This document shows, in pieces, positions 1,360 to 56,069 of a DNA stretch of 64,000 nucleotides. Origin of the DNA: an uncultured Flavobacteriales bacterium (GTDB taxonomy: Bacteria > Bacteroidota > Bacteroidia > Flavobacteriales_D > Sanyastnellaceae); NCBI GenBank assembly GCA_938085425.1, contig CALKGQ010000011.1:62001-126000 (forward strand), written 5' to 3'. The notes under the pieces were generated by a model. The model did no database searches and was not told the DNA's origin. It worked only from the letters and a program-made list of their open reading frames with translations. A program made the translations under genes and the position numbers. Each line of letters starts with the position of its first letter. Position 1 is the first letter of the stretch.

Positions 1360-3782
1360 CGGAGGATGGCGAATTTGATCACAGCGCCTTTCTTGCCTTC
1401 ACTGTCCGTGGCAAAGGCCAAATACACGCCGTAAGGCGCGGGCTGTCCGTTTTCCATGACCCCATCCCATGTGGCCCGGCCACCATTGCTTTCCAGCACC
1501 TCGATGCGTTGGCCGGTGGCGTCGGTGATGTGAACTGTGCTGTTGAATGCCATGCCGTCAAACACAATCGGACCGGTGTGGTCTGCTCGGATGGGGTTGG
1601 GCATGACCCGGACGTTCTCCATTTCCCGGTCCCAGTTGGTGGCTTCGGCGCGGTAGGACACCAACCCCGTGGACGTGGCGATGTAGACTTCGCCTGAAGC
1701 GTAGTCCATTGCAATGTCTAGGATGTCGTTGGAAGGCAGGGGGCTGTTCTCGCGCGTGAAATGGTGGTCTGTTGTCAAGCCATCCGCAGAAAGCACGAAG
1801 ACCCCTGAGGATTGGGTGCCCAACCACTTTCGGTTTCCCGCATCGATGATGATGCTTTGGATGACTTCTGTTTCCAACAGGTACTGCAGGTTGCCATCTT
1901 GGGAGATCAAGATTTGACTGGCATTGATGTCGTCGTCAAATACGGAGGCGCTTTGGTAAAAGACCGCTGGCCCTTCGGCCGTGCCTACCCAAATTTCATT
2001 GTCCAGGTCTTCTTCCAAACAGAAAACGTCGTTGGAGGGCAATCCGCCTTGGCCAGTCTGAGAGGTGAGGATGGTCCATCTGTCGTCGGACGGCTCTCCT
2101 GGAGTGCCCGAAGGGTCGTATACGAGGACGCCATCTCCTCTCGGGAGGACCGCCCAAACGTACCCGTCGCGGGTGACCTCCACGTCACTGAACAAGAGGT
2201 TTTGGCCCTCGTCCCCCAGGTCCATGGCCACAGTGGAGCCGTCGGGCAGCATGACGTGAAGTGCGCCGCTGACCCATGGGTTGGTGAACCACAGATTGCC
2301 TGCACGGTCAAAGTCAATGCCTCCCACAGCCGAGCGGGGAGTGCCGCCCACAAGGGAGGTTTGCAGACTCGAATTCTCGGCATTCAGCACACGCACCACC
2401 TCTCCACCACGGAGTTCCACAAGCCCTTCCTCATAAGAGGAGAAAACCACATGACTGGGGTCTGTGGGGTCGATGCTGACATCCAAAATGTCCTTGATGC
2501 CTTGGATGTCATTCGTGCTTTCAGGCAGATCGGGCACGGACCATTCTTCGTCGCTGAATTGGAAGCAACCATCTGACCGGTACTGAGGCGTCCAAGAAGC
2601 ACTGACGGCCCCCGTGGCCACCCACAAGTTGTCGTTCCAACAATCCAAACGGCGCACCCTCGAGGTGGGCGGGCCATCGGGCCGATTGGTCCTGGTGGAG
2701 ACACTTGTTTCAGAGGGATGTGGGACCCAAGTGATCACCCCACCCACTCCACTGGCAAGCCATATCCTTCCCGAAGTGTCTCCTTGAAAACAAGCGAGGT
2801 CCCTCACGACGGCAAAACCGGGGAGGGGATTGTCGATGGCAATGGCCCCTCCTTGGCCATCGAATCCCCATGCTTGGCAGCACGACGCCAGCAACATGCC
2901 CTCTGTCCGTGATTCATCCCCATTCAAGATCCACGGTCCCACGGCCATCCCGCCAAAGGGCAAGCCCTCGGGATTCCAGCCTTCAAAGATCTCCCAAGGC
3001 CCTTCCCCTTGTCTCCTCCAAACCAAATCGTCCGCCTCCAAGGCATCTTGGCCCGCGGAGGTGACCATCCACCATGACCCCCCGTAGTTGCGCAGCCCGA
3101 TGACCCGGCCCAGATCTGGCGCACCAGACCATGGGGACCAGTTGCTGGGGTTGGCGAGGAACAAGTTGTCGCGCGGTGCGGCCAACACCCCCATTTCCGT
3201 CCCCACCAACCAAAGGTCCTCGTGGGCCACGATGCAGTAAGCTTCGACGGGAGCAGACGGAGGGGTCAGTGACCACGAATCCGCAATCTCTTGTTGGTCC
3301 AGATCCACGACCACGACCCCCACAGCGGTGGCGAGATAGGCCATGTTGCCAAAGACCTCGATGCTGTGAATGTTCTTGCTCCCTACAATCTGTGCAATCC
3401 GAAGGTCAGGGATGTTCAAGGTGCCAAAGTCGCTTTTCAAATCGATGCCCCCATCGCCATACCCTACGACCCATTGATCGCGGTCTGCATCGTAGGCGAC
3501 CGCGGATGGGTTGCCCTGGTTCAAGGCGGTCCCCTTCACCTGCCTTCTGACTTCATACGTCGAAGTGTCCACAGAGAAGAGGGCATACTCGGTGCGCGCC
3601 ACGACTTCATCTTGGGTCACCATCAACCCAATGGCCGCTCCGTAAGGAAAGTGGTCTCTCCAACTGGACACCTCGTATTGGGCCCAGGCATCGGCTGCCC
3701 CAATGTGGGCCAACAGGCACAAGACCAAGGGCAAGGTCTTGCAGCAGTGTTGCAAAAAGGATGAGGTCATGGCATGGAACAT
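1356..3782 (-). CDS. porZ: Type IX secretion system protein PorZ-like (beta-propeller protein)
   Basis: About 808 residues. An N-terminal signal peptide (hydrophobic LPLVLCLLAHIGAADAWAQ) is followed by two-component-regulator-type propeller repeats (many W-V/x-G-T, LWFTNP and IWVGTAEG blades). A C-terminal Ig-like sorting-type domain starts near VRVMPNPIRADHTGPIVF and contains TWDGVMENGQPAPYGVYL. Two propellers plus this C-terminal domain match PorZ of Porphyromonas gingivalis, a surface component of the type IX secretion attachment complex. I chose the ATG at 3782; the ATG at 3770 is equally possible, and the longer start at 3851 would overlap the preceding gene and precede the signal peptide. 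It lies between the AlbA_2 gene and the aminotransferase fusion, probably in one operon. Confidence 0.82.
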   Translation of the reverse strand: MFHAMTSSFLQHCCKTLPLVLCLLAHIGAADAWAQYEVSSWRDHFPYGAAIGLMVTQDEVVARTEYALFSVDTSTYEVRRQVKGTALNQGNPSAVAYDADRDQWVVGYGDGGIDLKSDFGTLNIPDLRIAQIVGSKNIHSIEVFGNMAYLATAVGVVVVDLDQQEIADSWSLTPPSAPVEAYCIVAHEDLWLVGTEMGVLAAPRDNLFLANPSNWSPWSGAPDLGRVIGLRNYGGSWWMVTSAGQDALEADDLVWRRQGEGPWEIFEGWNPEGLPFGGMAVGPWILNGDESRTEGMLLASCCQAWGFDGQGGAIAIDNPLPGFAVVRDLACFQGDTSGRIWLASGVGGVITWVPHPSETSVSTRTNRPDGPPTSRVRRLDCWNDNLWVATGAVSASWTPQYRSDGCFQFSDEEWSVPDLPESTNDIQGIKDILDVSIDPTDPSHVVFSSYEEGLVELRGGEVVRVLNAENSSLQTSLVGGTPRSAVGGIDFDRAGNLWFTNPWVSGALHVMLPDGSTVAMDLGDEGQNLLFSDVEVTRDGYVWAVLPRGDGVLVYDPSGTPGEPSDDRWTILTSQTGQGGLPSNDVFCLEEDLDNEIWVGTAEGPAVFYQSASVFDDDINASQILISQDGNLQYLLETEVIQSIIIDAGNRKWLGTQSSGVFVLSADGLTTDHHFTRENSPLPSNDILDIAMDYASGEVYIATSTGLVSYRAEATNWDREMENVRVMPNPIRADHTGPIVFDGMAFNSTVHITDATGQRIEVLESNGGRATWDGVMENGQPAPYGVYLAFATDSEGKKGAVIKFAILR

Positions 3783-55904: not shown

Positions 55905-55937
55905 AAAAAAGAAGCCCCCGTTACGAACGGAGGCTTC
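55905..55937 (-). terminator. Intrinsic terminator in the cysM operon leader
   Basis: The minus-strand RNA forms a 12-bp stem, GAAGCCTCCGTT paired with AACGGGGGCTTC (one G-U wobble, 3-nt CGT loop), followed directly by U6 (55910-55905). It lies between the Cys-rich leader ORF and the cysM ATG, only 8 nt from the latter, so it controls readthrough into the operon. Confidence 0.88.
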
Positions 55938-55990
55938 CTGAGGTTGCGATTTCAAAGGGAAATCATTCGCGCATGTGCAGGAGGCTCCGT
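55927..55990 (-). promoter_or_regulatory. Antiterminator helix of the cysteine attenuator
   Basis: ACGGAG and TCCTG (55990-55978, inside the leader ORF) can pair with CAGGA and CTCCGT (55940-55927), giving two stems of 5 and 6 bp around a small internal loop. The 3' arm consumes the 5' arm of the terminator (55937-55926), so the two structures exclude each other. The 5' arm begins 8 nt after the last of four Cys codons. This is the expected geometry for release by a ribosome stalled on Cys codons. Confidence 0.7.
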
Positions 55991-56034
55991 GAAGGGAGAC
56001 AACAGCAACACCATGCATTGGGTCGAATGATCAT
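55963..56034 (-). CDS. Cysteine-rich leader peptide (23 aa, four consecutive Cys codons)
   Basis: ATG at 56034 opens a 23-codon frame that begins MIIRPNAWCCCC and stops with TGA at 55965-55963. The Cys run is TGT TGC TGT TGT (56010-55999). Cys is rare in proteins, so four in a row in a short frame placed between a promoter and an attenuator strongly suggests a sensor of charged tRNA(Cys). The ATG is 4 nt after a -7-like box, implying a leaderless mRNA, as for the polycysteine attenuator ORFs described in mycobacteria. The peptide itself probably has no function. Confidence 0.8.
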   Translation of the reverse strand: MIIRPNAWCCCCLPSRSLLHMRE

Positions 56035-56038
56035 GTCT

Positions 56039-56069
56039 TGAAGATAGGCCACCGTTGCGACGTGCGCAA
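56039..56069 (-). promoter_or_regulatory. Promoter of the cysteine leader and cysM operon
   Basis: Minus strand: TTG (56069-56067), 20-nt spacer, then TATCTTCA (56046-56039), AGAC, and the leader ATG at 56034. The -7 box has TAnnTT but differs from the consensus in the last two bases. It lies in the gap after the rodA stop at 56101. Confidence 0.5.

Follow-up and report, generated by a model that had tools for sequence, protein, structure and literature searches.

The window analysed here, a 64,000-nt stretch of contig CALKGQ010000011.1 from an uncultured Flavobacteriales bacterium, carries on its minus strand the gene order cysM-mec-cysO-moeZ (Table 1), which family matches predict to be a cysteine-synthesis set, in agreement with the target operon assumed in the first-pass annotation. 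In mycobacteria, CysO, CysM, Mec and MoeZ make cysteine from a protein-bound thiocarboxylate. A search of 51 family genomes, the source genome included, yielded no cysE above the curated cut-off, an absence that would be compatible with an O-phosphoserine route. The CysO-like carriers of the window and its relatives mostly end in IPAIAGG with 0–8 residues beyond it (GGCGF in the window) and hence probably need processing, perhaps by the JAMM protease; some CysO homologues are apparently fused to an E1-like protein. The source genome has a PAPS-reductase-family match and no match to the NIR_SIR sulfite reductase family (PF01077).

Ahead of cysM lie promoter-like elements, a short ORF with a Cys run and three RNA pairings, here termed protector, antiterminator and terminator. 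The promoter-like pair (TTG, 20 nt, box), the 23-codon ORF and the four Cys codons are located exactly where the first-pass annotation had placed them. Its antiterminator helix, with a 5' arm starting 8 nt past the Cys run, was likewise recovered, with a duplex energy of -17.2 kcal/mol. The terminator it had described is present together with the U tract, but the stem is slightly longer than the 12 bp originally given. This terminator has a folding energy of -21.4 kcal/mol (z -4.7 versus shuffles) and was the sole terminator-like site on the minus strand in a scan of the region; the whole leader folds more stably than 200 of 200 shuffles (z -3.7).

Table 1. Features of the cysM leader and operon in the window, and poly-Cys leader or Cys-run ORF regions of two Cytophagales
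Feature	Coordinates	Strand	Basis
-33 promoter element, TTG	56069-56067	minus	sequence; 20 nt ahead of -7 box
-7 promoter box, TATCTTCA	56046-56039	minus	4/6 consensus positions of TAnnTTTG
Leader ORF, 23 codons plus stop, MIIRPNAWCCCCLPSRSLLHMRE	56034-55963	minus	sequence and relatives; probably leaderless
Protector 5' arm, ATCATTCG	56031-56024	minus	folding; own-partner pairing in relatives
Sensor, four consecutive Cys codons, TGT TGC TGT TGT	56010-55999	minus	sequence
Antiterminator 5' arm, ACGGAGCCTCCTG	55990-55978	minus	duplex energy, partner permutation, folding
Protector 3' arm, CGAATGAT	55969-55962	minus	folding; own-partner pairing in relatives
Antiterminator 3' arm, overlaps terminator 5' arm	55940-55927	minus	duplex energy, permutation, folding
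Intrinsic terminator, 14-bp stem (55939-55909) plus T tract	55939-55905	minus	folding, scan, relatives
cysM-like PLP enzyme (cysteine synthase family), first operon gene	55896-54964	minus	family matches
mec-like JAMM protease	54967-54506	minus	family match
cysO-like ThiS/MoaD-family sulfur carrier	54533-54213	minus	family matches
moeZ-like ThiF adenylyltransferase with rhodanese domain	54235-53042	minus	family matches
Poly-Cys leader region, Flexithrix dorotheae	L234:1420-1777		
Poly-Cys leader and Cys-run ORF regions, Splendidivirga corallicola	L230:1650-1840 and 3400-3610		

Taken by itself, a run of four Cys codons is not unusual in the source genome, where 24 such TGY runs compare with 43 for the reversed control pattern. 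Of these 24, the run in the window alone belongs to a short ORF that begins with ATG and has a terminator behind it; several other candidates that were inspected lie inside longer reading frames. Despite the ordinary genomic counts, a chance run is ruled out by this context and by the conservation of the leader upstream of cysM in relatives. There, the leaders are short ORFs with 3–8 consecutive Cys codons. For 69 of 75 runs, the Cys frame extends back without interruption to an ATG that typically precedes the run by 8 codons; the corresponding counts in the two alternative frames are 3 and 20. Cys codon usage within the runs is mixed (TGT:TGC = 288:110) and run length changes by whole codons, so that selection appears to act on cysteine rather than on a DNA repeat. 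The peptide sequence outside the run varies freely from locus to locus.

The first-pass annotation had proposed a search of related Bacteroidota for Cys-run ORFs ahead of cysM/JAMM operons. We gathered 110 loci around cysM relatives, most of which retain the order cysM-mec-cysO-moeZ, and the result was clear-cut: 83 of the 92 rows in the window's clade of the CysM tree have at least one poly-Cys leader (one in 49 rows, two or more in 34), while 7 have none and 2 offer too little upstream sequence. By record titles, this clade spans Flavobacteriales, Saprospiraceae, Chitinophagaceae, Cytophagales and Balneolaceae. None of the six rows outside the clade has a poly-Cys leader, and in one of these outgroup rows (L025) cysE adjoins cysM. 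One operon-carrying contig (L034, NZGD01000088.1), titled Rhodopirellula sp. MED697, groups among Bacteroidota on the CysM tree and is probably mis-binned. Short ORFs with four or more consecutive Cys codons are concentrated in front of cysM, with 74 in 43.5 kb of upstream sequence versus 17 in the remaining 1,438 strand-kb. All 17 are on the same strand, farther upstream of cysM, in several loci separated from it by an extra gene. Such a gene is positioned between leader and cysM in L008, L011, L012, L014, L053, L106, L107 and L108. When translated, the intervening genes of L011, L014, L106, L107 and L108 were 1-Cys peroxiredoxin-like (two were Pfam-checked), an arrangement that would tie cysteine supply to peroxide defence; in L022 the intervening gene encodes an EamA transporter. 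L021 and L092 have siroheme-synthase-like genes directly upstream of cysM, where no leader was found. A strict sequence pattern, too narrow to survey the phylum, matched 4 of 396 phylum genomes, with one clear match, upstream of cysM.

A terminator follows nearly every leader of the relatives, usually 44–83 nt past the Cys run, and a comparison of 11 close relatives revealed compensatory changes in its stem. The stretch just after the Cys run pairs with the terminator 5' arm better than dinucleotide shuffles do (mean z -2.36 over 94 units, p < 0.05 in 58); this set included one non-leader run (L003) removed afterwards. Since MAFFT columns put the window's antiterminator arm out of register with those of relatives, this helix was assessed not by alignment pair counts but by comparing duplex energies between own and foreign partners. 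The antiterminator arm paired better with its own terminator than with foreign ones (93 units, permutation z -15.2, with related loci counted as units). As the own partner outperforms those of other loci, the arm covaries with the terminator, bearing out the expectation of covarying stems in the first-pass annotation. By the same comparison, likewise with related loci as units, the protector, which joins the start of the ORF with its end, also covaries (84 units, z -8.7). The antiterminator arm starts at a median of 11 nt past the last Cys codon in relatives and can always be reached by a ribosome at the stop codon.

Five Balneolales leaders (L062, L068, L075, L091, and L105), situated about 120–220 nt upstream of cysM, have ORFs ending at or soon after the Cys run, and no clear T-tract terminator was found in them by eye or by scan. 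The ORF is followed by a hairpin, for example GTTACCGG...CCGGTAAC, and by stretches rich in C and poor in G. These leaders possibly represent a Rho-dependent version.

The arrangement is that of a ribosome-mediated transcription attenuator sensing charged tRNA-Cys, a reading to which we assign a probability of about 0.9. With cysteine plentiful, the ribosome would pass the Cys codons, reach the stop codon and cover the antiterminator 5' arm, such that the terminator forms and cysM-mec-cysO-moeZ stays untranscribed. With cysteine scarce, we infer that the ribosome would stall on the Cys codons and break the protector pairing; the arm 8 nt downstream would remain accessible and pair with the terminator 5' arm, allowing polymerase readthrough. 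Position-specific folding reproduced the two ribosome positions invoked in the first-pass annotation: whichever of the four Cys codons the ribosome occupied, the antiterminator was obtained as long as the terminator 3' arm was not yet made (-18.7 to -21.7 kcal/mol), while with a ribosome at the stop codon the terminator alone can form. For the full-length leader without translation, the most stable fold combines the protector hairpin with the terminator. Until polymerase has added the terminator 3' arm, the lowest-energy fold of the ribosome-free window leader is the antiterminator, so that shut-off without translation would depend on kinetics.

Ribosome loading on this leader would probably be immediate. 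In Flavobacterium psychrophilum, the -7 box TAnnTTTG is given as spanning positions -12 to -5 in a transcriptome study (PMC9723704). The window's box, an imperfect match to this consensus, ends 4 nt ahead of the leader ATG, which places the predicted +1 on the A of the ATG; close relatives have TTTG 19–20 nt ahead of their -7 box. Among 68 first leaders of relatives, 19 have a box matching at least 5 of 6 positions that ends 4–5 nt before an in-frame ATG, compared with a mean of 2.2 and a maximum of 7 in 2000 shuffles. This spacing indicates that the first leader is probably leaderless in the relatives, and the box position predicts the same for the window. Transcription would begin on the leader ATG itself or no more than a few bases away from it. 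Such a start is notable because leaderless mRNAs or those with 5' UTRs below 10 nt make up only about 4–6% in two Bacteroidota transcriptomes (PMC9723704, PMC7366714). A palindrome-like sequence, TTGCGCACGTCGCAA, overlaps the -33 element (56055-56069) and is not evident in close relatives; it could be an operator or a chance occurrence.

Other explanations of the poly-Cys ORFs have to be weighed against transcription attenuation. Canestrari is said to have described, in 2020, leaderless poly-Cys leader ORFs of mycobacterial cys operons, and here, too, a stall at the Cys run might act on translation by exposing the cysM start region, termination playing a minor role. This possibility draws on the actinobacterial precedent: Cys-run leader ORFs of actinobacterial cys operons were reported without terminators (Seliverstov 2005, PMC1262725), and passages of a further study describe mycobacterial poly-Cys leaders as leaderless, cysteine-responsive, and translational in output (PMC13236596). 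The Bacteroidota leaders share with them a short poly-Cys ORF before cysteine-synthesis genes, and leaderless initiation is predicted for the Bacteroidota leaders. Unlike the mycobacterial leaders as portrayed in those passages, they have a strong, conserved intrinsic terminator whose 5' arm covaries with an antiterminator, and for this reason we do not place them in the mycobacterial family. Moreover, about 10 nt separate the end of the window terminator from cysM, so that a separate sequestering hairpin would have little room. We therefore consider mainly translational control improbable. The mycobacterial Cys-codon attenuators mentioned in the first-pass annotation hold as poly-Cys leaders, but no terminator was found in them.

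The conservation of the ORFs, with up to eight Cys in a run, might also be taken to mean that they encode functional small proteins, e.g., metal- or thiol-binding ones, with the terminator being constitutive. We regard this as still less probable, as the peptides are free to differ outside the Cys run while spacing and RNA pairings are retained, and as the ORFs are essentially confined to the front of the cysM operon. The strong structure of the window leader would suit a riboswitch or another RNA switch independent of translation as well. Yet Rfam returned no family at gathering score for the window or six relatives, the best sub-threshold match being Phe_leader (RF01859; 22.8 bits versus a cut-off of 55), itself an amino-acid leader, and the kept frame, Cys run and ribosome-scale spacing match translation rather than an aptamer, rendering this explanation highly improbable.

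In about one third of the operons, a second Cys leader follows the first, and as a rule each of the two is paired with a separate terminator. Well-supported branches of the CysM tree force the tandem state to change at least 8 times; judged from this tree, the tandem arrangement was gained or lost many times. Poly-Cys leaders also precede sulfite reductase in the cultured Cytophagales Flexithrix dorotheae and Splendidivirga corallicola (Table 1). In the latter, a ferredoxin/Cys-Met enzyme pair is additionally preceded by a Cys-run ORF, with no terminator detected there. Another Cytophagales locus (L256) carries a tandem leader pair ahead of sulfite reductase on its minus strand, and three more (L259, L263, and L264) have short CCC ORFs plus terminator-like sites near sulfite reductase. 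These leaders point to a possible cysteine regulon. Most of the other long TGY runs inspected across 18 carrier genomes sit within long reading frames, and PAPS-reductase and cysE-like loci of the window's family have no poly-Cys leader with a terminator within 1.5-kb flanks. A small Cys-rich ORF in L210 (about 800-950; MNDCCKCCNTKSCEPCSGCQCCCCCCQAY...), which lacks a terminator, is metallothionein-like and not leader-like. That a Bacteroidota cysteine regulon is run by leaderless poly-Cys attenuators, repeatedly doubled for one signal, appears to us an evenly balanced proposition. If true, a transcript beginning with the leader AUG would allow a ribosome to load directly behind the polymerase, and two same-signal attenuators in series would make a tighter switch. 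With the probable leaderless start, the common tandem leaders, the covarying protector and the sulfite reductase leaders, none of which featured in the first-pass annotation, its attenuation interpretation is supported in a broader form than originally stated.

Ribosome-mediated attenuators of the trp/his/phe type are best described in Proteobacteria. The present leaders resemble them in that a short leader ORF contains a regulatory codon run, the RNA can form protector, antiterminator and terminator helices, and the genes behind the leader serve to synthesize the amino acid being sensed. They differ in that the signal would be cysteine, the ORF is probably leaderless, the leaders are often doubled and the hosts are Bacteroidota; nor did the window or six relatives match Phe_leader or other Rfam leader families by covariance model at gathering score. 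Two leader ORFs on one leader RNA are known from Salmonella mgtCBR, where the tandem attenuators answer different signals, ATP and proline (PMC3641672), unlike the present pairs, in which both ORFs have Cys runs. Before their own Firmicutes case, Naville and Gautheret (2010) were aware of leader-peptide systems in Proteobacteria and Actinobacteria alone, and attenuation was surveyed across bacteria by Lopatovskaya et al. (2010), as cited in PMC4833913. Within the phylum of the window, leader-peptide attenuation was suggested for amino-acid operons of F. psychrophilum (PMC9723704) and in general terms for Bacteroides thetaiotaomicron (PMC7366714), with no cysteine case in the main-text passages of either study. 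As in the first-pass annotation, which knew of no Bacteroidota case, we found no earlier cysteine attenuator of this phylum in the literature, subscription journals being mostly outside the scope of the search. While the kind of regulator itself is known, a cysteine-specific, intrinsic-terminator, often tandem and probably leaderless attenuator appears to be new.

Attenuation of the trp type requires tight coupling of transcription and translation, and translation in Bacteroidota is mostly initiated without Shine-Dalgarno sequences. Our analysis suggests that this type of attenuation operates in such bacteria as well, and it provides a concrete, testable regulator of cysteine synthesis in a phylum whose sulfur control is little studied. 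The poly-Cys leaders of Actinobacteria and Bacteroidota are seemingly two solutions to one problem, with output at different stages. The repeated gain or loss of tandem leaders for the same signal may serve as a natural experiment on serial attenuation, and poly-Cys leaders, unannotated as they are, can flag genes of cysteine metabolism.
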